From contig OX485804.1 in NCBI GenBank assembly GCA_950295325.1, positions 43,276,001 to 43,340,000 on the forward strand: DNA of 64,000 nucleotides. The letters run 5' to 3'. The notes beneath the pieces were generated by a model that was not told the origin of the DNA, did no database searches, and saw only the letters and a program-made list of their open reading frames with translations. This stretch comes from Polytrichum commune. Taxonomy: Eukaryota; Streptophyta; Polytrichopsida; Polytrichales; Polytrichaceae. Position numbers and translations under genes: made by a program. This document shows, piece after piece, positions 308 through 62,549 of the stretch. How positions within the stretch are numbered: the stretch's first letter is position 1; each line of letters begins with the position of its first letter.

Positions 308-1827
308 AATGGCGACGGCAGTGATTGTCTCATCCGAGAGCTCACTGTTGCTCGCAAGTAGAGAGGTGATGAAGTCGACACGACCATCTTCCTTCTGTTT
401 CCTACTTGCTTCCAGAGTGTGGCCGCTTTGCCTTCTGTATTCCTGAATGATCGGCACAAGAAGGCCTTCTCGGTGTGGTTTGAGACGTTGTAGTCCCGCC
501 TCAACCCCTGGAAATTTATGTATAGGTACAGAATACAACCATTGTTAGGAAACAAAAGAAAACAAACAAGGAAATACCACTCTTGAGTCAGAAATGCGCA
601 CAATTTCTCATAGGTAAATGAGCTGGTAATTTATTTATACATCGTTGATCCTACATGACGAGTAGTATTCTACTGCACAAAGTAGAACTCCCTGTAGTAG
701 TACTTTCTTGGCGGTTTATGTAGAATGATGATTGACGTCTGTAGTAAGTAATGTCCCACTAATAATGTTTGCTCATTTTGCCATGACAGGAACCATCGCT
801 GGGAATTTAAACGTCCACCTTGATTCAAGAACGTACACTTTTCTCAAAAAATAACTCCCGGTTAGGTAAAGAACATACCATTACTAAATTGAATGCAGTT
901 TATATAATTGTATGACTGACACAAAGGTTTGAATGAATGGAATGAGTCAGTGGAGGAGATGATGATTCAAAGTTACTCACCTTGCAGATCCAGCCACCGA
1001 AGAGCAGGAATGTAATCACCGATGTTGAAGAGGCCAACAAGTCTGGTGGCCGATTTGACGAAGCATTTGAAGTCCTCAACCTCCGGTGGGGTAGGCACCT
1101 CCGAACTAGCTGGTTCACCGAACAGCCTTTTGCACAACACCATTCGCCCCACGATGTTCAAGGTGACATTGAAGACGGTGGATGTCAAATTAAATGTCCT
1201 GGCAGAGGAATTAGGTGAGTCCAAATCACATCCGGCTACATCTCTTGAATGTCGAAACACGCTGGCTAGCAAGGCCCGAACCTCCTCCCACCGCAACCCA
1301 GACATGAGCTCCACCTTGGTTGGTGACAGAAGCTCACATGTGTATATCTTCTTCATGCGTCGAAAGTGCTCTCCACTGGGAGAAAATACCACACTGCGGT
1401 AATTGTAACCCAGATGCTTCCCTGAGGCAAGAAGAGGGCGGGATGCGAAGTTCTGGTCATAGGTTTTCAGAATCGCCATCGCCATTTCGGAGTTCGACAC
1501 CACCAGAGTGGGGCGAGCTCCCATCCATAGAAACATCACCGGACCATATTTCTCAGCTAAAGATGCGAACCTCCGACACGCAGGAATGTGCTTGGGGCCC
1601 AACGAATACATAGATCCTACGATCGGCCAACCTTTTGGACCAGGTGGGAATTTTTTCAGATTTTTTTCCCCGTCTCTCCATCTCTCTGCAAGATTGCTGG
1701 ACCGCAAGATGATGAACACCGAACCTATCGTCGCTAAACTCAGCAGGGCTGTGAAGATGATGCTAACCTCAAACTCATTGTTGTTGACCATGCTGATGAT
1801 GATGCTCCGTTCATTCAATATCACCAT
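308..1827 (-). CDS. Cytochrome P450 (CYP71 clan), exons 1-2, 3' part outside window
   Basis: Membrane-bound heme mono-oxygenase, expected on the ER face; the substrate cannot be told. Exon 1 is 1827-981 (282 codons plus one base) and exon 2 is 507-308. The donor GTGAGT at 980 and acceptor TTTCCAG ending at 508 join in phase 1 to give LDLQ-G-VEAGLQRL, a familiar intron site in this clan; exon 2 ends in phase 0 at another GTGAGT (307). Visible parts are a hydrophobic anchor (about residues 21-41), the proline hinge FPPGP (60-64) and the substrate-recognition and C-helix region (HFRRMKKI). Exon 2 ends at LSDETITAVAI, just before the expected AGTDT I-helix. The heme Cys motif and ExxR lie beyond base 1. 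A second Met at residue 13 is an alternative start. Both exons are free of stops, so the gene looks functional. The clan assignment is firm; the family (CYP75-like, CYP78-like or other) is not. Confidence 0.93.
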
Positions 1828-2110
1828 TGTAACTGTAAATTTTTGGAGGTTATACTACAACTTCTACTACTGCACAAATCTATGTCTACCAAAGATGATG
1901 ATGCTCACGTGCTTATAAATCTTTTTTGAGCAGATCTCTAAACTCTCTGAAACCCCAAATCCCAGCAGGGCGTGAAGATGATGCAATTAGCCCCCCATGC
2001 TGATGCTCCGTTCATTCACCATTGCAACGGTTGTAATTTGGTGGTACTACCTAGTACTGGTGCTGGACAAATCTCTCTACAAAAGATGATGATGATGCTC
2101 ACGTGCTTCT
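1740..2110. repeat. Tandem duplication covering the P450 start region
   Basis: The block 1740-1918, which holds the first codons and leader of the P450 gene, recurs in decayed form at about 1963-2110, some 222 bases upstream of the gene start. Shared landmarks are CAGCAGGG..GTGAAGATGATG, GATGCTCCGTTCATTCA, and AAGATGATGATGCTCACGTG. The distal copy also carries an ATG in the matching place but soon meets a stop, so transcripts starting far upstream would carry an upstream start codon. Confidence 0.8.
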
Positions 2111-2165
2111 TCCTTTTCTCCTGCAGATATATCGACTCTAAAACCTCTTCAGGAAGCCTTGACCT

Positions 2166-2210
2166 ATGACGATGACGATGAAGATGATGATGATGATGAT
2201 GATGATGATG
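2166..2210. repeat. GAT/GAC microsatellite
   Basis: A run of about fifteen GAT or GAC trinucleotides directly upstream of the duplicated P450 leader. Confidence 0.95.
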
Positions 2211-4389
2211 CCAGGCTCTCGGAATCAGCTATCTTTTTCGGATGAGCTTGCTAGGTAGCAGCGAAGTGAGCTCATTCCAAGTTTGCTGCCTAAGTACTTA
2301 GCATGCGGATGTCAGCCTAACCGTTGCTGCAAGCATCACCAACCTATGATGATTCTCTGAGATGTTCCCATTTGTACTGATCATGTGTTCGGAGCAATCA
2401 AAACCATTATTCTGCCAGGCTGCAATTGCACATCTTCTACAGGGGTTAAGTACAAAACAGCAACGAACTCCCAGCTACCTGCCTCCTGCTCATGATACTT
2501 GTCCGAACCAGCAGCAGCAGCGGCAGCTCTATTGAATGATCATCGTCACCACAGCACTCCACCCACCGGCAACAATTTGTAAGTTATTTCAATTCTACCT
2601 GGTCCTCCCCTCCCTAGTTACCGACTTGGCAAGTTAATCTGATCTCAGCTCCCAGGCCCCGCCCCCCTCCCCCTCCCCCTCCCCTTATTTGCCTGCCTGC
2701 TGTTTCATCATAACACGTCATCTTTACCTTTTCTCAAAGTCCTCCCTACTTTCTGGGATCTTTTTTTTCCCCAAAACTCCACATTTCTTAGTTAGTATTA
2801 TTCATGCTCTGTGGCTAAGAGCTACCTTTTCAGATATATGGGTCAAGGAAGGGTTCGCCACATATATCATATAGATTTTTAGTCGATTTGATAACAGAGG
2901 ATATGTGTGTGTATATAAATTTATTTATTTAATTATAGCCAGCCTCTTGCTTGCTTGCTTGTAAGCAACCCATGATCCCCTTCATGGGTTTATTCATGTT
3001 TTTGTGCTGAAGGTTCCCTTCATGCCAACATGATGATCAAGAAGTAGTTGGCTCGTCTCAGTTTCTGTGCACATTATTAATAATGTGCATTGTAATCAAT
3101 CCCTGCATAGTAGATATTCTTATACCTCCTCATCAGCATCTTGCAATATCGCACCACATTCTTTTGTGATGAGAAGGACCCCCCATTTTCATTTTGACCT
3201 CAGGTTGGTCATGGTCTTTTCTCAGTTTCAAAGCTGACTTGCATCAATTTACAACTAAACATGGAGGGCTGTGCAAGGAAATAAATATTCGCTTCTTGGT
3301 ACCTACTTCAAAACTTTACCTATGTCGTAACTAAATTCCACACCTGTGCTCAGATGGTCAGGGCTTAGGGTTTAAGGGTTATCTCTTTCTTTACGATTGG
3401 AATGTCTCAATCGCTGTACCTAATTTTTCAGTACAAAAGTGGCAGGGACACATTGTTTTGGAGGGAGTCACTGGCAGCCATGAAATGAAACTCTAGTTCA
3501 AACCTGCACGCCAATCACATTTTCTAATTTTCTGCACGGCCCTGATTGACTCCTCACCTTCCTCAGTCACTCTCATGCACACATACGCATGTGATAAATT
3601 GAGATTTTAGCCCATTTGCTGTCTCTCTCATGGATCTCATCACTTAGTCGTAAAGGTGTTTCGTGCATGACATCGATGCAGCCGTCTTCTTGCTTCCAAC
3701 ATCACCCTCTCTCTGTTGGTGCTAATAAATAAAATCTATATAATATCTTCTTTGTTTAAAAGTAATGAACCTGGTATTCATTGTTGTGGACCCACCCACA
3801 AACACCTGAATTAAATTTTCTGCAGTGAAACTGACATCAATCCAGGCTGACGGTGCAATGAAATGGTTAAGTTAACTCTGCATCCGAACTAGTCTTTTGA
3901 TCAATCTACATGTTTCAGATGGACCGTCAGTGACTCAATGTCCATGTAGCTGGAAATTCTAAAACTCGCATGTGCTGGAGTAAATTGGTACACTACATAA
4001 CTCAGTAGATGATTACTTTTTCAACTGCAGCACTAATCCATATTTGCATACATGAAAAGGATCCAGAATTGTAGCATGAGCAATTTGCAATGTCAGCTGA
4101 TTGAAGTTCTGGTCCGATGTCTGTACAAAAGCTGTCCATGTGCAGATGTTCATCAACACCCATGATGCTCATGGCTGTCAAACGTGACTTGTACCAAACT
4201 TAAATGGGTTTTTGATTTTCTTTGATTTTCACATTCCAAATAAGTCTTACTTGAAGCTAGATATAGCCTATGTTTCCATTTAATGAATGCTCTAATTTGT
4301 TTGTTTTAAATGGAACTGACTTTGTACACAATGACTCAGCTATAATGAGCTCACTGCATTCACTAGTTGAGGCTCTAGTTCCAAACTGC
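2211..4389. other. Intergenic, no gene seen
   Basis: Upstream flank of the P450 gene. A pyrimidine-rich stretch at 2650-2690 (CCCC and CT runs) and ordinary AT-rich sequence; no open frame with recognisable similarity on either strand. Confidence 0.6.
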
Positions 4390-4780
4390 ATTGGACATAA
4401 GGTACGTGGGCCTATTGTGGGCACTTCTAACACCAGAAACAATATTGACTGTTGGATCAAAACATGAACTGTCTCATCCGGTTAGGAACTGCAAATCACA
4501 TAATTTGTCATACCAAGTTTATGAATTGAAGTTGAGCTGCGAAAGTTGTACGAGTCCAAACGTCATGTTTTTGTAAGTGATCACATAGGCCCTCTCACTT
4601 TTGTAAACCTAGAATTGAATCTAAAACGGTGTCCATATTTTGAACAAATGGTCCAATCTCATGGTAACATGTGTCTTTTTGATGTCCATTCTTAACCAAA
4701 AAAAAAACCTTGCCATATATATACAACTCAAATATAGGTGTCCAATTCAGAAAGGTGACCACGTAAGGCCCACATACCTT
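4390..4780. repeat. Old dispersed repeat (first of three copies)
   Basis: Parts of this block recur at about 42690-42960 and 44741-44940. Shared phrases include TATTGTGGGCACTTC, CATTGGATCAAA or GTTGGATCAAA, TGATCACATAGG, GTCCAATCTCAT and TGGTGTCCAA. A shorter piece (GTGTCCAATT..GTGGCCACATAA) is at 15475-15530. No coding potential or intact ends were found, so the class is unknown. Confidence 0.6.
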
Positions 4781-7700
4781 ACTTTCCCTGGTTTTCTTGC
4801 ATAATGGGCTTGCTCGAGTTTGAAGTACAGATTGTGCATGCATGCTAATAGTGTTTTGAACTCATCGTGGCTAGAGGTGGATGTGAAATTATGCAGCTGA
4901 ACAATGAGGAAATTGGGAGTAGTACGTTGTCATCTTCATCACAACTGGTCTCACTTGATTACTAGTTCCACAGTTGGCGGCCAAGCACTGCGTAGGTAAG
5001 TAAATGGCCAGCTGTTGGTTGCATTTGCAAACTCAAATTATCATCACGACTTGCAATGACCATCTTGGTTGTTGCGTCCGACTCAAAGCAACAAATAATG
5101 CTGTATTCTCTTTTTTTTTGGGTGAAAAAGTGATCTGTGGCTGTCTGTTGCGATCATTCTAATTTTGGGCTGAATATATTGTTGCGAGAGTGTCCTGTCC
5201 AATTGGTTCTCTCTCACTACCCCAAAAACTACTCCAGAACTCTTAGTACTTCCTTTAAATAAAAACCCTCAAATGTCTCCCAGGCTCCAAACGGGGCCTC
5301 GTGATACGTAGATGCGACCTTAGCGAGCCTGCTGCGCCTGATTCATAGGTCACCATGATTTGAAGACCGTCCTCGTGTTTTAGAGATAGGAATATTTTAG
5401 TATCGGTATAAGTGATAATGCAAACCCGTCTGGGCCAGCGATTCCCAGTTGTCTAAAATAAAACTCTCTCGCCCTCAATGATGACAGTAAGCTTGGTCAT
5501 GGGATTGTCAAAGTGGCCGGCACAACTGGTGAAAGTAGGCAGTCGGAGTCCCCATATCATCGCAAGTAGAAAGTCGGTATATATTTTAATTATAGTTTTT
5601 TTCTCTTTTTAAATACTGAAAATACACACTTTAACACTTGGAAGATCAGGTTGGGGGAGGTCGAGTCTGTACAGCTTATGTAAACTATGCCATGCCATGA
5701 CTCAAGGTATGTTTACAGAGCAGTGTCTGAGGAGATTTTTGGGCATAAGGTAGATGGGTCTTAAGTGGCTCATTTTCTTAAATGGACTTCTAGATTTGAT
5801 TGGTATGTGATGCGGTGATGATCAAAGAGCAAACATCATAAAGACATGTGTTTAAAAGAGATTGGACCACGTCTTCAAATATTAATAACTATTTTACACT
5901 CAATAGTGAATACAATTGGAAGGATTTATGTATTCACTTAAGAGATCGACAAACATGCACTTCCGATAACCATAACTTAATCAGGGGAGGTTCAATTTTC
6001 AATATGGTTTTTGCATATGTCTCATTGTAGATTTGCCAACACAATTACGATTTTTTTGGGTGTGATTCTAACTGGTAGAAGGTGGAGAACATGAATTCAA
6101 AGAAATTTACACCCAAATACCTTGTTTGGTCAGTAATTTTCTTGCAGTCATGAACCTCAACCAGTTATTTCTCAACCTCAACTGGTTCATCTGTACCTAG
6201 CGATCATTTCTCTATGTTCATTGTGACAGAGCCTGTAAAATTCAGTTTTTATTTTGGTGCTTGTCAAAACAAATTCTATTTTTGTGCAGTGATTTTCTAC
6301 ACATCACACTGCAATTTTAAATTTCCATTTTATCATTTGTTTTACAATTAGCAAGTACCATATAAAATTACTTTCAGTGATTTACATATTTACTGTAGTT
6401 AAATGTTGCATGGAATATTGGAGTTAGGCGGTGCTATAACATTCTATTAGGCATATGTTTTCTTGCAAGTGGAATACAAAGAGGTACTCTAAATATTGTA
6501 TTTAGTGCCACTAATTCTATTCTTTTTGCTCAATGCTAATTGTAAGCCGCCCGTGTAGTGGTTGTCACACTAAATATAAACCTAACATAATTTGTCACTG
6601 AACCTTGAAAGAGAATTGGACATTATAGATTTATAGAGATGCAATTACTATCACTTACTAAGTGGATTTTCATCCAAATTGTAATCATCCATGGCGATAG
6701 TTCAATACAAAATTGTTAGAATACAGAAAACCAAACTTTGTTTCAATAATTGACATGGATTCCATCCCAATTTCAATCATCCATGACAGTATTTGTATAC
6801 TTATTCATCTTCATGTCAACTGGATTGAAAAGTCCATTTTGCATCTGAGTAGTTTTGGCATTTGGATCATGAATGTCATGTCAGATTTGACAATTCCGAG
6901 TTATGATTTACTCGATGAATTTTAGTCCTGATGACCCAAATGTTCCAAACATTATTATTGTCCTGATTTTATTTGTGATGAAGATTCTCCGGTCAAAAAG
7001 ATTTCATTCGGAAAACATCAAAGGATGGTCAATTTCAATGGATAATGAGACATGTGGGCCTCGTCACTCTTTCTAATGGGATGCCCTAACTCGGGGGGTC
7101 ACTCTCTCTTATATTAATGCATACACATGCGCTCAGGACCTATTTATATGGGGGGCTATCTACCTTGCATAAAAGATTATAAGGTTATGATATTTTTCAA
7201 AATAAAGGTAAATGCTTGTATTTTAATACACCTTATCAGTAATTATAATTTTTTTGGGGGAATCATTTTAAAATATTTTATTTTACTTATACTGCCAATG
7301 AAAATTGGAAAGAAGATTGCAATTCAAACAACACACTAAAATTTTCCCTCCCAGCACGTAGGTAGAGAACATTAACTCCACATTGGATATGTTGGTTCAG
7401 TTACGTTCTAGTCAACCAGCCTGCAAAGTCATCCATCCAAGCTTTTTTAACAAAAAATTACCTATTTCATCCACTAGCACAGACCCTACCCTAGACCCGC
7501 TACCCCTAGTAAATGTTTTCCATGTTATTTACCATGTACCGACTAGATAAAAGAGGCCATTATATGTGATGGTATTTTACATGTAAACATGTTTCATTAT
7601 TCCAAAACCCCCTATATTAAGTGTATGTTTTTGCAAAATTTATCTAAAATGAATATATTAGACCCTATTTTTATCGCACGTTATTTCTACGATTTTTGGC

Positions 7701-10062: not shown

Positions 10063-10070
10063 GATTAGTG

Positions 10071-11498
10071 CTCGGGGGGTGCACTGTACTAAACATGTAC
10101 GAGTATATGTGAGTGCACAGGAGGGGTATTGATTTGGACCTTGCCGTATTACATATACATATGGTATACATGTCATAATTTATAGTTACGTACATATATG
10201 GAAGGCCTTTAAAAAGTATACAATAATTGTACTTGTATGATACTGTTACTATACTACATATCATAAGTTTTCATATTGGATGAAATTAGGATTAACTAGG
10301 ATTAACGATTTTCGTTAGCAACCTTATAGGGTAGTTTGAACCATGTACAAGGTGTCAAGGTAGTATCGGGGAAAGAGGCAGTATTGGGGTTTTGAAATGA
10401 TTCGTTCAGCTCAAAGTAACAAGGACCATTTTCCCCTCCCATCCCTAGGTTTTGTTTTCTCTTTTTGTCGGGTGCTGAAGGTTTTTATTTTCTCCTCTAG
10501 TCGGGCGCCGAAGGTTTTTGTTTTCTCTTCTCACATAGCCTGCTTCTTTTGCCGACAACTGCTTCACTTTTCCTTCTTTCACCTGTTGCTTCCAACGCTT
10601 CTCAGCGTCCTTGCGGTTACCGCTGCCGTGGGAATCACCGAAAGTCCTGACATTGTCATGGCCTCGTTCTGAAATTCCCTCTCTATCAAATGCAAAGTCA
10701 GCTGTGGCTTATGTAATGGTAGGGGAGTCTAGAATTTTTAAAAGTACACTTGTTAGTCAATTGAATGGCAATCCTTCTTTGTCTAAAGATCGGTTGACTC
10801 GAATTAAATCTGGCATATTATATATGAAGCCTAAACTCCCGAGTGTTGGAAACCATGACACTTTGTTAAAGCTTGGTTGTGACTCTGGTGTGTGTTTTTT
10901 GAACACACCTGAAGCTAAAACTGTGAAAAAACGAGGTAGGCCAAAAAAATCTACTCGAGTTAAGGTTTGGTTTGTTGGGAGAGTTTATAGGATGTGGAGG
11001 AAGTTTGGTAATCGTTGGGTGGAGTATAGGGATCCAATTGACTTGATGGACCATCCATCAAACGTGGAGATTGGTTTATGTTGGTATCAAAAAGGGGCTA
11101 ACAACAAGTGGACATATGATCTTACTGATCATTTGATGGTAGACTTAGAGACAATAATTGCATTGGCTACAATGACATATATTGGTGAATCAAATGTTTA
11201 TGAGTTACATCCGGGAGATGAAAAAGTTTTCAACGACTTTGCTTATGAAAGCTAGGATATTTTGTTATACATATTATAGGGGTTGATTATTGTTCAAAAG
11301 TATATTTGTATACTTATGTTAATGACTATATATGAATGGATGTTTTTTTGTGTATACATATTGTCACTTGTATATTTATTGTTGCAATTGTATGTGTATT
11401 ACTTCATTTCACAAAAAATAACTTGTATATAGGGGGTTTTTAGAGTATGCAGTGAACGCACGTGATTCTAGGTTTTAATGAAAGGTGCACCCCCCGAG
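10071..11498 (+). mobile_element. AT-hook-protein transposable element, copy 1
   Basis: The ends are perfect 14-bp inverted repeats (CTCGGGGGGTGCAC). GATTAGTG precedes the element at 10063-10070 and follows it at 11499-11506, a perfect 8-bp target duplication. The interior has AT-rich flanks shared with copies 2 and 3 and one coding region on the plus strand (10611-11255). The stretch 10270-10680 does not match the other copies and contains an internal duplication (TCGGGTGCTGAAGGTTTT, TCGGGCGCCGAAGGTTTT), so the 5' half has been replaced. No transposase was recognised, so it is presumably mobilised in trans. Perfect ends and duplication suggest it is the youngest of the three. Confidence 0.88.
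10611..11255 (+). CDS. AT-hook protein carried by the TIR element (open frame, 214 aa)
   Basis: I do not recognise a named family. The open frame has a block at residues 44-66 (KSTLVSQLNGNPSLSKDR), conserved in copies 2 and 3, then a typical AT-hook (KKRGRPKK, about 106-113). A C-terminal domain at about 117-200 is rich in Trp and charged residues (VWFVGRVYRM, WVEYRDPIDLMDHP, WTYDLTDHLMVDLETII). The same C-terminal domain is recognisable at 46638-46920. The true start is unclear: homology with the other copies begins near residue 22, the next Met is residue 36, and the acidic N-terminal module of copies 2 and 3 is missing. AT-hooks bind the minor groove of AT-rich DNA, so a chromatin role is plausible but inferred. 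Expression is unknown. Confidence 0.6.
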   Translation: MRLPLPWESPKVLTLSWPRSEIPSLSNAKSAVAYVMVGESRIFKSTLVSQLNGNPSLSKDRLTRIKSGILYMKPKLPSVGNHDTLLKLGCDSGVCFLNTPEAKTVKKRGRPKKSTRVKVWFVGRVYRMWRKFGNRWVEYRDPIDLMDHPSNVEIGLCWYQKGANNKWTYDLTDHLMVDLETIIALATMTYIGESNVYELHPGDEKVFNDFAYES

Positions 11499-11506
11499 GA
11501 TTAGTG

Positions 11507-13545: not shown

Positions 13546-14205
13546 TATGCTTTCCCGATACCACACCCAAAATATCTTTTAAATTTCATTTTAAGCATGA
13601 TTAACCAAGTAATTTACATAGGCTCTATTCTAAAGAAGTATAGATCTTGCTAAGGTGCTTGATTTGACATTCGAAAAACCCCATTTGGTGTAATGGAGTA
13701 GAAGTTTTGAACAAGATTCTCCCAAAATAATACCAAGCCCGTGGGGCAACATTGTCCTTTAAGGGTTAGTTGACCTCATTTCCACAAAATATCAGGCACT
13801 TGGTGGTGATGAAACGTGCGCGCGAGTTTGATTTTGAAGCGTGGATTTTTTTATCGCCAGTGTTAATGTGGCTCTGTTTTTCGAGCAATTCTCGCTCTCT
13901 ACAAACATTTGTTGGCCGTTGGATTGGATCAGGAATCCTCTCGTTGGTTAGCGATTGTGAATCGCGCATACTGTCACTCTCCGTTTCTAAATGGGAGTTG
14001 GGTTGCAAAAGTTATGAGAGGTCGAAGTGGCGATTTCTTTTTCTTTTCTTTAACCGATCACCGAGGTTCGTTCAGTTGTGTTAATTATTGAGCTTAGAGT
14101 GCTTGATATCTTTTGAGCACATAGGTCGATCTCATTGGAGCACGGTTTGTTTTGGTATGTGTCCATTTTTTATAAAAAAAATTAGTATAAGTGTCATAGT
14201 CCACT

Positions 14206-15461
14206 CCCAGGGGGTGCACCTTACATTAAAAACCGAGAAACCATGTGCTTTCGCAACATACGAAAAACACTTCCTATATACAAGTTTTTTTGGTTGTAAA
14301 ATCAAGCAGTATATGTGCAATTTCAATGATAAATGTTACAAGTGACAATATGTATACGTAAAATCATTCACTTTCATATATAGTCATTAACATAAGTATA
14401 CAAATACACTTTTGAATGATATTGAACCCCTATCCTATGTATGATGTAAAACTCTAGCATTCATCAATGAAGTTGTTGAAGACTTTTTCATCCCTCGGAT
14501 GTAATTCATAAGCATCTTAGTCTACAATATATGTCATAGAAGCTACTGCAATTATTGTTTCTAAATCTATCATCAAATGATCCATAAGATCGTACGTCCA
14601 CTTATTCTTGGTTTCTTTCTTAAATTAACATAAACCAATCTCCATGTTTGATAGACAGTCCATCAAGTCAATTGGATCCCTATACTCCACCCAACGAATA
14701 CCAAATTTTCTACGCATCATATAAACCCTCCCAACAAACTAAACCTTAAATGGAGCTAAATCTTTTGGTCTACCATAATTTTTTAATAATTCTAGCTTCA
14801 AGTGTGGTCAAAAAGCACACTCCACAATCACAACCAAGACTTAATATAGTATCATGATTTGCAGCGGTAAGGAGTTTAGGCCTCATATATAAAATGTAAG
14901 TCTTAATCCGAGCCAATTGATCTTTAGGTAAAGTTGGATTGCCGTTCAATTGACTAACAAGTGTACTTTTGACAATTCTAGACTCCCCTACCTCCACATA
15001 AGCCACAATAAAGTTTACAATAAATTGAGAGGGCATTTTAACATTTTCATGTTCATCAATTGAACAATCCAAAGCATGTCAAAGCTCGCTTTGCAACTCC
15101 AAATCTTCATGTAAATCATTTTTAACTTGCGATTGCATCAATTTCATCTTTTTGACAACATCCTTGCACGTGTTTGAATTATCTTCTCCAACACTATAAT
15201 TTTCCTTGTCGCCACCTTGTGCACTAGAATCATCAATCAATGTGTGATGACATTCACACTCCTCATCCCCCTGCATACTTCCAAATAAATGAGTGACCCT
15301 CTACAAGTACAAGTGTTGTATGTTTTCTAGAGGTCCTCCATACATGCACATAACTATGAGCTCAATTTAAGTAGCACATGTAGTATATACAAGTTCAAAT
15401 TAATACCCTTTTTGTGCACTCAAGTCTTCTCATACGTGTTATGAAAGGTGGACCCCAGCGG
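14206..15461 (-). mobile_element. AT-hook-protein transposable element, copy 2
   Basis: The ends are CCCAGGGGGTGCACC at the low side and, inverted, CCGCTGGGGTCCACC at the high side. The flanking 8-mers are AGTCCACT (14198-14205) and ATTCCACT (15462-15469), a target duplication with one mismatch. The coding region runs on the minus strand and includes an acidic N-terminal module absent from copy 1. Diverged ends and several frame breaks show it is older than copy 1. Confidence 0.85.
14470..15276 (-). pseudogene. AT-hook element protein, broken (copy 2)
   Basis: Starting at 15276 the frame reads MQGDEECECHHTLIDD, then GGDKENYSVGEDNSN and DLHEDLELQSEL, then a TGA. The same frame continues into SIDEHENVKMPSQ and KSTLVSQLNGNPTLPKDQ as far as IIKK. 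There a one-base insertion and stop precede a frameshifted AT-hook (GRPKD). The C-terminal domain follows with more stops. The TGA after LQSEL sits at the same place in copy 3. Confidence 0.8.
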
Positions 15462-15469
15462 ATTCCACT

Positions 15470-26869: not shown

Positions 26870-28560
26870 ATTGATTAGTAAGAAGTCCAAAGGTTTTCCA
26901 TTCTTCACCACGGGGTGGTACAAAGGAGACAAAAGGTCCTTACAAAGACTATTGGCCTAAAGGGAAACTAAGGAGACCAATGGAAAGCTCGTGTATAATT
27001 GTGGGGTGTGAATAGGACTTGCATACATGTGTGTGTGTGTGTTACTACTTATTGGTAATTTGTATTTGCATAGGTCTTGTGATAAATCAAAATTAGGAAA
27101 ACATAACTGACACTAAGGAAGCATGGATAGATGAACTCAGACTATGGACTTTCAACATGTACATCGGTCTGGCCTATTGTCCTATGAGGTGGACACCCAT
27201 ACTTGCAATTGGAGCTGAGGTAATTTTTTTTTAAAAAAAATTAAAAAAACTATGGTATGATAGCATTAAAATTAAGAACTAATTAAGTAAGGTTGAACAC
27301 CCTAGAAGGGTGACTTCACAACCCTTTCAAGTTACATCTAAAAAGATAATTAATACGAAACTATTGACCACACCAAAGTGCCTTTGGCTTTAGTGAAGAG
27401 ACAAAAATGGGATACTCTATGCAAGACTATTGACGATGGTTGTGCCTATGATTGTGCACTGCACAAGGTCTCAGTCAAATGAACTTATTGCTAGACTAGT
27501 ATGCGGGAAAATAGTGAGATGGAGTGACTATCATAAATGCATGTATTGCGGTTGAAAGATTCCAATTCCCTTGCACAAATGAATGAAATGTTAGTATAAA
27601 TCATGAATACTTTGAAATAAACCTATATTTTTCCAAATTAAACTTATTTGCCACACCTAGATGATACCAAAAAATCACCTTTTAAGTCTTCCTTGAGTGT
27701 TTCCTAGGGTTTTGTTTTCACCACAATCTAAACTATAAGCACGGTCAAGAACATAAAATCCTTCGTCCAAAAAGAACACACAAGACTCACAATTGAAACC
27801 ACCAAAGATTTTCAATATGTTGAAAAATGGCTAAACAACGACCAAATTGACCAAAATCTATCCAATCATTTTTGGAAAAATCCACACATCCATGGGGTGT
27901 GGACTCGTCCATACCACATACAAAGGAACGTGAATATAAGAAGGGATATTATTTGAGGCATTAGCGTGCATAGTATACATAAGGGAGATGTATTGATTTT
28001 CTCTAGTGTGTATATTTAAAAAGGCTATTAAGTATTTTGAAGAAAAGGTAGACGTACACAAAAGGCCCTAATATTTAGACAATTTTTTGACAATAGATGT
28101 GCTAGTTTTATCTAATTCACATTTTCATTCATTGCCGTGATATGGTAATAGTCATCAATGACTCTCTTGTCCATCCTTGTTAGGGTTTGCATTTGGGTTA
28201 CACAACAAGCTAGAGGCTCTTGGAGTGCCCATGGGCTCACTTGAGTTTTGTTCTCCAGATTGTGGCTAAGTTATTGTGCACTTTTCATTGTTTGTATAAT
28301 GTAATCATTGAATTACATGCTATGAATGGAAAAATGTTCAATGAAATTCTCATTAGAAAGTGAACAAGGATTTTACATGTAATAAAGGCATGTTTGATTC
28401 ATGATTTATATTTTGTATATGTAGTGGAGGCAACTATCACATTAAATTAAAAAGCTTAGTTTATTCCTTGATAGACTTCCCGTATATAATTAGGTTTAAT
28501 TTCGGAGTGACCCAAGCACGTCTTTTAGGTTTCCAATGAAGAGTCCACCCCCCAGGCACA
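26870..28560. other. Intergenic; holds a dispersed repeat pair
   Basis: The block 27940-28240 matches 45925-46200 on the same strand (TTTTCTCTAGTGT, GACAATAGATGTGCTAGTTT, GAGGCTCTTGGA). The phrase TTTAGGTTTCCAATGAAGAGT near 28525 recurs at 48392. No gene was recognised. Confidence 0.55.
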
Positions 28561-35857: not shown

Positions 35858-38800
35858 TTGACATACCACATAACTTACAGAGATGTAATTTGATTAATAA
35901 GTATTGTAATTTACCTCCACCCACACTAGGTGTCAAGGGTGATGTTAGGATGTTCACCTGCAAAAAGTAGAAGCACCTACAACAAATGCTTTAAGCATTT
36001 GAGACTTTGGATGTTTATGAAAGTTGAATTTTTCCAAGGAAATCTTTAAAAATTAGGAATTTGATAATGAAATTAATGAAATAAATCCAGTTCGTGAAAT
36101 TTTGGCATCATGTTTTAGACTATGTCTCGTGTTTTGTTTCTCTCAAGTTGTAAATGTTAGAACCAACGGCACTCGTTTCTATTTACGTATGTGCCCACTT
36201 TTAAGACCAAAAATGGGTGGAGAATTGGGTCATTGAGGGAATTGGGCAATGTCTTGATCACTTTAGAATATTGAATTGTTGGTCCACATACCGAGCAAAA
36301 GGGCTTGGAGGCTAGAAATGAGGTGGAGAGTCGTATAACAAACAACCTTGCTAAAGCGGTTTCCAATGTATGACAATCCTCCATTTGCGCTCCAAAATGA
36401 ATAGACTTGTGTATACATTCTAGGAAATATTGACCACTTAAGGAAGGGTGTCCGTGATAGGCGCTTCTACCATATTGTAGGGGGAGGCTAGATGCTAGAA
36501 AAAAGTCACACGTAGGATTGCCATACACAACTTGAGGTCAAGCTCAAACTTGCAAGCTTGGTGGACCAAGGTTGAAGAATTTGCACTCTTACATGTGCCT
36601 AAGATGGTAGAGCTTTGTCTCAAGGAACTGATCCCCCCTTTTGGGGGACCAAAGATCTAGTTTAGGCACAAACTTAAACTTATAGGTGACTTGTAGAATT
36701 TTCAAGCTGGATGACGACATCTTCTAGTCCACTCTTGAACATGAAATCTCGGGGGTGGACTCTGCATTGGATACCTAAATGATGTGCACATGTCACTACA
36801 AAATTAAACCCCCTACACATGGAAACTTTATGGAGGAAAACAAATGTATATGTACTAATGGCAAGTCAAAAATTGGATTCATGTATTTATACTAAGTTTT
36901 TCAGATGCATGTGATAAATGCCTCCACCACTTATACAAATTATAAATCATGACTTAAACAAACTCTTATTACATATAAAATTGACCTTCACTTTCCAATG
37001 AGAAAGTCATTAAACAAATTTTCATCCATAGCATGTACCTTAGCGATTGCACCAAACAAAAAAAGACTAGAGCACAAATAAATTAGTCACAACTTGGAAG
37101 AGCAAAACTCAAGGGAGCCTATCTTATCCAAGAGCCTCCAATTTGTAAAACCCTATCAAAAATTGCAAACCCTATCAAAAATGAACATGGGAGTCATTGA
37201 GGTCTATTATCATATGACAACACTAGATGAAAACGTGAATTGAATGAAACAAACACATCTTTTGTCAAATTTTCCTCTAAACATTAAGGACCCCTTTTGT
37301 ACATCTACCTTAACTTTAAATTCTTAATACCCTTTTTATATGTACACACTTTAAAAAAGAACAAAAAAACACACACCTCTCCCTTACGTTGATGCCTCAA
37401 ATATTGGGTATATGTAAGCGTCCAAATTCTTTCATTTTGACCCACCAAAATTGGAAACTTGAGCTTAAGCTCAAGTCATGTGTGTGTTTGAACCTATGTT
37501 CGGGGATAACCGACGGCTAGTTCATTATCAACCGATGGATTTCCCCTCATGGCCGGTCCAAATTTCCAACCATCGGATGGCAATCCGACTGTAATTTCAA
37601 TCCTACGGCAATTAGCCGATGGACCAGAATATGTCCCGGAAATGTAGCCGATTCTTCTTGTGAGCAACTGGATTTCAACCGGAAGCATCCAGAGCGCTAT
37701 TTGTCTGGGGCATCTGATGATGCACTTGAGGAAGTACCCTAAACCTTAAACTTTTTGAACTATGCAACCTTTCCATGACCAAATCCAATTGCTTCTATGA
37801 AGAATTGGGGGACCCTTGACCTTCAAGCGGTGAAGGCAGTGCTAGGTTCAATTCCTGCCAAGGATATTAACTCTTCAAATTTAAAGTTTTGAACATGCCT
37901 TTCTTTTCACTTATTCAAGATTTTGTACTAAGAAATGATTTCTAATAACTTTTCATACATTTTTTAAACAATTAGTGCCGATATGAATTCCATTTAATCG
38001 GATATTGGCCAATGAAAATATAGGCAATTGGCCGATTGATTTTACAAAAGACCGGCTCTTGCCGATGTAAATTGGAAAAAATCCGACCCTTCATAGCAAC
38101 TACCGGCAATTAGCCACTAAGGCTTCAAAAACTTCCCGAACTCTAGTTTGAACCTAAGTAAGAAGCTGCCTATCGTGGACACCCTTCCTAAAATGGTTAG
38201 TATCTTCTAACCTTCAATGTAGCATGTCTATTCATTTTAGAAATGTCGTGCTTTGGTAACCGCTTTAGAAAGGGTATTCATAAAATATTTCAAAGGCCTT
38301 AGAGCGGCATCGGCAATGCAACTCCAATGGAGGTATTCTAGCCTAAGGTAGATGTGCCTAGTTAGGTTCCTTCTTTCTATTGGATGCTTATATTTGAGTG
38401 GAGTGTGGTTTGGTGTGGCTCCAATAACGGATGTCAAAAACACAAGTGTTCAAAAGAGATTGAGTTGCATGCTCAGAAGATGATAACCATTCTAAGCTCA
38501 GTAGAGAGCATCATTGGCACGATCTATATGACCACATAATGAGCATGAAAATCTTCACTTTGGTAATGAATAAGACATTCACATGAGCTCCAAAAATTAT
38601 GAAGAAAGTGGTTGTGGCCTTGAATAACATTACTAAGCATCAAGATGATGGTCTTTTCCCAAACAAGGAAGCTGCAATTGAAAACTTTGACTATATAGCT
38701 TCTAGTTGATAATTCCACAGTTTATAGTCTAAGTGCTCCCCGTAAATAGGGAATCCCGAAATTAAAGGAAATTATTCTCGTTCAATACATGGTCCCATAA

Positions 38801-61047: not shown

Positions 61048-61320
61048 TAAATATATGTCTGGGAGCTCCTCTCTGAACATAGAGCATGAATGGATGAAAG
61101 TTTCTGGAACGGTACTTTTCCCGTCCAGGAACTTTTTGAGGGGGCTGCCCAAACAATTGAAGCCGGTGATGCTGGCCCACCATTTAGGTGTATATCGGTA
61201 TTTCTGTTTTTTTAATACCATTTGGGTATTTATAATGAGGTTTTCATTTTTATTTTTCATGTCCTTAGGGTATGGGAATTTGACAGTAGTTGTGTTTTCG
61301 ACATCATTTGGGTTTACACT

Positions 61321-62539
61321 CTCCAGGGGTGCACCTTTTATAACACATATGAGTATACGTGAGTGCACAAAAGGGCTATTAAATTTAACTTTTTCATATA
61401 ACGTGTACATATTGTATCTTACACAAATTATAACTCGTAGTTATGTGCATGTATGGAGGACCTCTAGAAATATACAACATTTGTACTTGTATGCTAGGGT
61501 TAGTTACTGAGGATCGTTTATTTGATAGTATGCAGGAGGATGAGGAGTGTGATTACAATCACACATTGATTGATGATTTCAATGCACAAGGTGGTGACAA
61601 GGAAAATTGTAGTGTTGGAGAAGATAATTCAAACATGTGCAAGAATGTTGTCATACAGACGGAATTGATGGAGTCGCAAGTTGATAATGATTTACATGAA
61701 GATTTGGAGTTGCAAAGTAAGCTTTGACATGCCTTGCATGTTCTAATTGATGAACATGAAAATGTTGAAGTGCCCTCTCAATCTAATGTAAAGTCCATTG
61801 TGGCTTACGTAAAGGTAAGGGTATCTAGATTTTTCAAAAGTACACTTGTTAGCCAATTGAATGGCAATCCAACTTTATTTAAAGATTGAATGACTCAGAA
61901 TAAGGTTGGCATATTGTATATGAAGCCTAAACTTCTTATCGTTGCAAATCATGATACTGTGTGAAATTTTGGTTGTGATTGTGGAGTGTGTTTTTTGGAC
62001 ATACCTGAAGCTAAAATTGTCAAATAACGTGGTATTCCAAAAATATAAGCTCCAATTAAGGTTTGATTTGTTGGGAGGGTTTATAGATTGCATAGAAAAT
62101 ATGGTCACTATGAAATATGGAGATTGGTTTATGTTGGTATCAAAAAGAACCAACAATAAGTGGACTTACGATCTTACTGATCATTTGATGGTGGATTTAG
62201 AAACAATAATTGCATTAGCTTCTATGACATATATTGCAGACTCAGATGTTTGTGATTACATCCAGGGATAAAAAAAGTTTTCAACAACTTTATTAATGAC
62301 TACTAAGGTTTTACATTATATATATGATAGAGGTTCATTATTATTCAAAAGTATATTTGTATAATGACTATATAGGAATGTAATGTTTTCAATGTATACA
62401 TATTGTCACTTGTATTTTTATCATTGAAATTGTATCTGTATTGCTTGATTTTACCCAAAATACTTGTATAGAAGGGGTTTTTAGAGTATGTTGTGAACAC
62501 ATGTGACTTTTGGTTTTTAATAAAAGGTGCACCCTTGGG
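61321..62539 (+). mobile_element. AT-hook-protein transposable element, copy 3
   Basis: The left end CTCCAGGGGTGCACCTTTTAT and the inverted right end CCCAAGGGTGCACCTTTTAT match best inside the GGGTGCACCTTTTAT core. The flanking 8-mers are TTTACACT (61313-61320) and TCTACACT (62540-62547), one mismatch. The interior aligns with copy 2 through both the N-terminal module and the KSTLVSQLNGNP block. The Copia fragment begins directly at its right border. Confidence 0.86.
61443..62290 (+). pseudogene. AT-hook element protein, broken (copy 3)
   Basis: The frame holds MQEDEECDYNHTLIDD, GGDKENCSVGEDNSN and DLHEDLELQSKL before TGA at 61725-61727. This is the same stop position as in copy 2. It continues with LIDEHENVEVPSQ and KSTLVSQLNGNPTLFKD, then stops. 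The hook itself is damaged (RGRP has become RGIP and follows a stop). The C-terminal part reads NNKWTYDLTDHLMVDLETII. The N-terminal module is acidic and includes a KEN tripeptide. Confidence 0.8.
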
Positions 62540-62549
62540 TCTACACTAT

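Follow-up and report, generated by a model that had tools for sequence, protein, structure and literature searches.

The three TIR elements in the window (the whole 64,000-nucleotide stretch of Polytrichum commune DNA analysed here) are very probably internally deleted, non-autonomous members of a family of cut-and-paste DNA transposons. Protein alignment shows that the AT-hook frame which they carry is the C-terminal tail of a transposase encoded by the family itself, left behind in the internally deleted copies. The long elements of the family contain a candidate DDE core that resembles that of the P superfamily around its signature positions. We regard it as an evenly balanced call that the family represents a P-superfamily-like cut-and-paste clade in a land plant, with diverse lineages whose ~1,500-aa transposases are intact and lack a THAP domain, and with a recently mobile non-autonomous family.

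In the window, copy 1 is a 1,428-bp plus-strand element (10071..11498), which is defined by its ends, CTCGGGGGGTGCAC and GTGCACCCCCCGAG, and by its target-site duplication (TSD). Its 14-bp ends are identical, and comparison of its flanks gives the duplication GATTAGTG on the left (10063..10070) and on the right (11499..11506), with 8/8 positions in agreement. Copy 2, a diverged minus-strand element of 1,256 bp (14206..15461), lies between AGTCCACT (14198..14205) and ATTCCACT (15462..15469), while copy 3, a diverged plus-strand element of 1,219 bp (61321..62539), lies between TTTACACT (61313..61320) and TCTACACT (62540..62547); each of these two duplications agrees at 7/8 positions. The initial annotation had described three TIR copies with CTCGGGGGGTGCAC-type ends and a common coding region, and our analysis confirms both the positions and the shared region, which is ~80% identical to copy 1 in copy 2 and ~76% in copy 3. 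In both diverged copies the transposase tail is decayed. In copy 1, alignment and tblastn identify it as a 214-aa open frame on the plus strand (10611..11255) with the AT-hook KKRGRPKK, for which the Pfam match is sub-threshold (11.8 bits against a cut-off of 17.4). The frame begins with a TTG codon, its first in-frame ATG being residue 36. A search for an empty site of copy 1 returned its own two flanks as the sole matches.

The window also contains two GGGGTGGAC sites, at 28543..28551 and 36752..36760, one on the minus strand and one on the plus strand, in the similar contexts CCTGGGGGGTGGACTCTTCATTGGA and CTCGGGGGTGGACTCTGCATTGGAT. They look like single ends of another, similar family, and no partner with a good TSD was found for either among the end-like sites listed.

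The host genome searched (G000; 408 Mb, 64 contigs) contains 401 matches to the left-end 24-mer and 396 matches to the right-end 24-mer (≤2 mismatches), and the same end patterns read backwards, as a control, give 0 and 0 matches. Four matches to SAM_LFY, a family of green plants, fit a plant as host, and the LFY reading frame seems unlike that of flowering plants. On contig C1, 47 exact left ends are listed, of which 31 have a listed exact right end as partner no more than 12 kb away (spacings 702–790, 1,167–1,428 and 1,752 bp); the other 16 have no such partner. The 214-aa frame matches at least 152 places in the genome (150 of 2,943 candidates scored). We examined 44 short copies, comprising window copies 2 and 3 and 42 of the 152 matches (L001, L002 and 40 picked by hand, mostly high-scoring). 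Both ends are present in 40 of the 44, no end pair being found for L037, L040, L042 and L043, and 38 of the 42 examined loci drawn from the frame matches are bounded elements; the surroundings considered were those of these 42 loci and of L003–L005. With the best TSD of each short copy chosen from 64 combinations of small offsets, the 8-bp duplication is exact in 34 of the 40 two-ended copies and within one mismatch in 39, the remaining copy (L052) having two mismatches. Flank pairs taken between different loci at fixed positions, as a control, include 0/1,560 exact matches and one within one mismatch. Many copies bounded by these ends and by 8-bp duplications, which the initial annotation had named as support, are present in the genome. 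The examined copies fall into size classes of 716–758, 1,269–1,270 and 1,362–1,430 bp, with one copy of 1,841 bp, while the diverged short copies measure 1,219–1,278 bp. The 716–758-bp copies keep just the last 87–97 codons, yet they have spread.

One match to the 214-aa frame sits in a 796-codon open frame (C4:55013324). Read further upstream in the same phase and past two stops, it starts at the ATG L003:581 and counts 1,443 codons with the two stops included. The upstream 487 residues of L003 match at least 92 places in the genome, and among the listed matches there are nine stop-free single frames of 1,493–1,549 codons with 46–50% identity to the L003 query, as well as two frames of 1,114 and 1,189 codons with 34% identity. 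The five full-length proteins used here measure 1,490–1,509 aa from the first ATG, and the long-element proteins overall ~1,440–1,510 aa. In an alignment of nine long proteins, five of them full-length (alignment A1), the 214-aa frame aligns with the C-terminus of all nine, lineages of ~28% overall identity among them, and the blocks AEDET, GH[AS]SD.D.RRR, QD..H..KK..NP and GSD.CE.FFS are invariant. Furthermore, six of eight long frames (L006–L011) find the window copies in tblastn, while the divergent L012 and L013 miss them. The initial annotation had read the frame as an AT-hook protein in place of a recognisable transposase; its alignment with 9/9 long proteins contradicts this.

L012 and L013 form a divergent lineage, with a core that is 34% identical to L003 and 98% identical between the two. 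They carry a separate upstream open frame of 367–414 codons, termini CCCGGGGTGGCAAC and exact 8-bp TSDs.

All eight long proteins compared (8/8) contain a candidate catalytic layout D-D-D(2)H-E, with spacings of 119–120 residues from D1 to D2, 42–47 from D2 to D(2)H and 233–242 from D2 to E; in L006, whose 440-aa core covers residues ~680–1120, three of the candidate positions are D707, D826 and E1068. The interval between D(2)H and E includes a stretch long enough for a GTP-binding insertion domain. The DDE core is probably catalytic, and the Cys/His pairs in the N-terminal half look like zinc fingers. By eye, an RGRP motif also occurs near these pairs in most full-length members, and the fingers and AT-hooks probably bind DNA. 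In addition, L006, L008, L009, L010 and L011 share a G[KR]xGRP AT-hook-like motif followed by a conserved Q..LH.WF (A1 columns 401–430), a motif that we take to resemble the PCNA-binding (PIP-box) consensus. All four candidate catalytic positions lie within the part deleted from the short copies. Among the listed matches, L003 is the sole whole-core copy of copy 1's subfamily, and because it bears two in-frame stops, no intact transposase source of copy 1's exact subfamily is seen.

The long relative of copy 1 is a 9,148-bp element (C4:55005007-55014154) with CTCGGGGGGTGCAC at both ends. On its two sides stand TTTATTT (7 bases fetched) and GTTTATTT, which give a TSD of (G)TTTATTT with 7/7 fetched bases in agreement. 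The left 416 bp and the right 829 bp of copy 1 are 96% and 98% identical, respectively, to the ends of this element, and a differing stretch of ~180 bp lies between the matching ends. Relative to this longer coding element, copy 1 retains both ends with their adjoining sequence and lacks the middle, as in a non-autonomous internal deletion derivative. Long elements as a group span 5.8–9.1 kb, with ends similar to those of the short copies; they supply the longer relative with a DDE-like domain that the initial annotation had named as support. Specifically, five of the eight more distant long loci have C(T/C)CGGGG ends and exact 8-bp TSDs: TCTAGATT (L008), AAAGAAAC (L009), TGCCACCC (L011), CTCAGCTC (L012) and GTAACGAG (L013). 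No C(T/C)CGGGG end pair was accepted for L006, L007 and L010. Three alternative pairs were left out, namely a pair in L007 that forms a 25/25 inverted repeat with CATTAATG duplications and has an unrelated end sequence, a second, weaker pair in L007, and a pair in L010 with a 15/25 match and a duplication with one mismatch.

The tail evolves neutrally in the short copies. Across 34 short-copy rows, in which copy 1 appears twice (as 'ref' and as L001), copy 2 is included and copy 3 is left out, the pooled pN/pS is 0.93, with values of 1.03 in the 19 stop-free rows and 0.85 in the 15 stop-bearing ones; comparison with the majority sequence gives 0.99. Five distant long-element pairs give 0.16–0.43 at pS of 0.69–0.87. 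Constraint is absent in four close long or long-short pairs, each resting on few changes: L003/L004 (0.79), L012/L013 (0.85), L003/copy 1 (2.8) and L006/L007, which shows no synonymous change. The initial annotation had proposed a dN/dS comparison between copies; run here as pN/pS, it gives ~0.9–1.0 in short copies and 0.16–0.43 between distant long lineages, which argues that the tail is a passenger in the short copies and is conserved only as part of a whole transposase. Furthermore, L019–L022 occupy four sites, each with its own exact TSD, and show 100% identity over 1,393 bp; all four carry the same single stop codon, indicating that movement has been very recent.

The family has also captured a host gene. 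Bases 1460–3717 of the 9,148-bp element (L014:1467-3724, C4:55006466-55008723) are 97% identical to C2:21143426-21145680, a locus with a DUF1295 (steroid-reductase-like) gene (PF06966, 8.7e-28), which is probably the donor. Judged by the match, the captured stretch apparently includes introns. The same join recurs in L072 (in C3:10419000-10428900), a second partial copy, which aligns with bases 2794–3747 and 3817–7130 of the element.

This capture is the one point in favour of reading the short copies as Pack-type elements that have amplified a host AT-hook chromatin protein, as the initial annotation had suggested. Gene capture does hold for the family, in the form of the DUF1295 stretch, but it does not extend to the AT-hook part. 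That part matches the C-terminus of every aligned transposase, including the ~28% identical lineages; it is neutral in the short copies, and the examined copies that contain it are in most cases (40/44) bounded by element ends. Capture of a host chromatin protein as the source of the AT-hook frame is therefore largely refuted, and we consider it very improbable. Still less credible is the other proposal of the initial annotation, in which a very short autonomous element would rely on its own 214-aa protein for transposition. The frame is open in 19 of the 34 short-copy rows, which speaks for this proposal, but it starts at TTG with no ATG before residue 36, has none of the four candidate catalytic residues (D, D, D(2)H, E) and shows a pN/pS of ~1. 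Moreover, stop-bearing copies have spread as identical copies at four sites, and so have 716–758-bp copies reduced to the last codons of the tail.

Truncated P-element proteins act as repressors, and the retained tail might likewise regulate transposition trans-dominantly. A possible DNA-binding motif and retention in several size classes would suit such a role, but neutral pN/pS and the spread of stop-bearing copies argue against it, and retention of the tail may reflect merely which DNA adjoins the right end. We judge a regulatory role improbable, if somewhat less so than capture or autonomy, and favour internal deletion of a larger transposon.

On this favoured reading, internal deletion, the long form is an element of 5.8–9.1 kb bounded by C(T/C)CGGGG ends and flanked by 8-bp duplications, which in the main lineages encodes one protein of ~1,440–1,510 aa. 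That protein is predicted to start with N-terminal Cys/His zinc-finger-like motifs and the first AT-hook, to continue with a split RNase-H-like DDE core (D-D-D(2)H-E) and to end in the C-terminal tail; some lineages have a second AT-hook. The N-terminal fingers would recognise the element ends, the DDE core would cut and insert with an 8-bp stagger, a length that follows from the 8-bp TSDs, and the AT-hooks together with the C-terminal domain could contribute to the binding of AT-rich DNA, either at the ends or at the target. The short copies retain both ends, whose need for the enzyme follows from their being kept, plus, by accident, the last ~90–215 codons. Transposase from a longer copy would then mobilise them in trans.

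To place the core within a superfamily, we searched domain and structure databases. Pfam gave no match above cut-off for any of six long proteins (five full-length) or nine core segments, TNP-like models included; in the same six proteins no THAP domain and no hAT, MULE or KDZ transposase domain was matched. Pfam includes a KDZ transposase model. As a control, a hAT-like DUF659 transposase frame of the same genome (L005:3713-5074), which adjoins a diverged transposase copy, scores 5.4e-34 by the same Pfam method. PF21787 is silent in the genome, and its controls are equally silent. NCBIfam returned nothing for three L003 pieces, PDB searches by sequence and profile returned nothing relevant, and among viral and GTDB contigs 77 and 76 pattern matches yielded 0 confirmed relatives of the long protein. 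As Pfam, NCBIfam and PDB lend no support, the case for catalysis and for P affinity is one of motifs.

The P superfamily signature is D, D, [C/D](2)H, E, represented by D230, D303, D339 and E531 in the residue numbers that PMC8230255 gives for DmTNP. All eight long proteins contain this signature, in the same order as DmTNP. As P-type reference we used the L063 frame, which scores 1.2e-26 for Pfam TNP-like_RNaseH_N. Profile comparison with this reference stays within background: hhalign of the core against L063 gives an E-value of 0.034 and a probability of 1.5%, with 2/100 shuffles and 2/50 decoys scoring better, and hmmsearch ranks L063 42nd of 658 reported among 1,001 sequences, nearly all of them its own shuffles. 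A register test with a hAT control was therefore used instead, in which families are anchored at the four residues and their flanks are scored against all other same-residue anchorings. In this test, a post hoc one devised with the motifs already known and with one P-type protein as reference, the true score is reached by 0/593 null anchorings at D1, 2/666 at D2, 7/615 at D(2)H and 2/459 at E. The hAT-like DUF659 frame, used as control in the same test, gives 613/674 at D1, 222/724 at D2 and 9/335 at C(2)H (E excluded), and thus fails at D1 and D2 but not at C(2)H. These counts suggest a distant relationship between the core and the P superfamily, to which we give an even chance or somewhat better.

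Membership of hAT or of another known superfamily (KDZ, MULE) instead of P-like affinity is the most serious competitor, and we regard it as unlikely rather than remote. The 8-bp TSDs occur in hAT and Zisupton as well, and the hAT control performs fairly well at C(2)H (9/335); against this stand its failure at D1 and D2 and the silence of Pfam on six long proteins by a method that readily detects the DUF659 control. TSDs of 8 rather than 9 bp do not fit a typical MULE. Two MULE-like readings had been entertained and were dropped, namely TSDs of 9 bp (ends aligned to CTCGGGGGGTGCAC give 8 bp) and the tail as a PB1-like MULE domain (Pfam gave no support).

L063 itself is a contig of 3,981 bp that bears the label of a Nitrosopumilus MAG and encodes a P-type transposase (512–1636 and 2278–2589) with a PF21787 match; its presence in that bin is probably eukaryotic contamination. 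A search for L063 relatives found none. The degenerate P-motif pattern DPPHL.K..RN matched nine contigs (L056–L064), of which L063 alone is P-type. By eye, L056–L060 are methyltransferase-like, L061, L062 and L064 consist of short or repetitive frames, and none of 6 further contigs from a looser P-motif pattern is P-type. One P-type contig in nine is a warning for motif-only searches.

PMC5791352 describes the P group as mostly restricted to Drosophila. In the titles and abstract openings that we covered (a scope outside which Repbase and most subscription papers fall), we found no plant P-type elements and no mention of these ends. If the P-like placement is true, it would extend the P group to plants, beyond the animals in which the cited papers place P-type transposition, and would illustrate the use of other DNA-binding modules by a P-type core. 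Plant elements that seem to have been active recently and that have a new type of transposase would be candidate genetic tools; with them one could ask whether a THAP domain is required for the GTP-dependent P mechanism. A group of hundreds of copies with long open transposases, for which no Pfam model was found here, would probably be left unclassified by model-based annotation.

Deletion derivatives of the Ds and KP type retain the two ends together with a portion of the transposase gene, and depend on a full-length element. The short copies are built likewise and would depend on a full-length element too, but the portion that they retain is the 3′ coding end and not the DNA-binding N-terminus. 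Compared with Pack-TYPE elements, the 9.1-kb member similarly carries a host gene fragment (DUF1295), apparently with introns, whereas the AT-hook reading frame is not captured host DNA. hAT elements have 8-bp TSDs and an RNase-H-like core with an insertion; the TSD length is shared here, as is, by prediction, this kind of core, but there is no hAT Pfam match in the long proteins and the register test fails at D1 and D2. Mutator-like elements, with TSDs of ~9 bp and a MULE domain, differ from this family in both respects, the TSDs here being 8 bp and the Pfam match absent. The KDZ (Zisupton) group differs in that no KDZ Pfam match is found in six long proteins; for Zisupton, PMC12730594 gives 8-bp TSDs.

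The P superfamily (Drosophila P, zebrafish Pdre2, THAP9) shares 8-bp TSDs with the moss family, and zebrafish also has internally deleted copies, as described in PMC7776569. The D2-to-E distance of 233–242 here is close to the 228 of DmTNP and the 239 of hTHAP9, as calculated from residue numbers in PMC8230255, and there is local similarity around the four signature positions in comparison with one P-type protein (L063). By contrast, the D1–D2 distance of 119–120 exceeds the 73 (DmTNP) and 70 (hTHAP9) obtained from those numbers, and the long moss proteins lack a THAP domain and score with no TNP-like Pfam model. The moss family further differs in its single ~1,500-aa protein, which combines zinc-finger-like motifs and AT-hooks with a C-terminal domain that is conserved, in its G-rich CTCGGGG ends and in its plant host.
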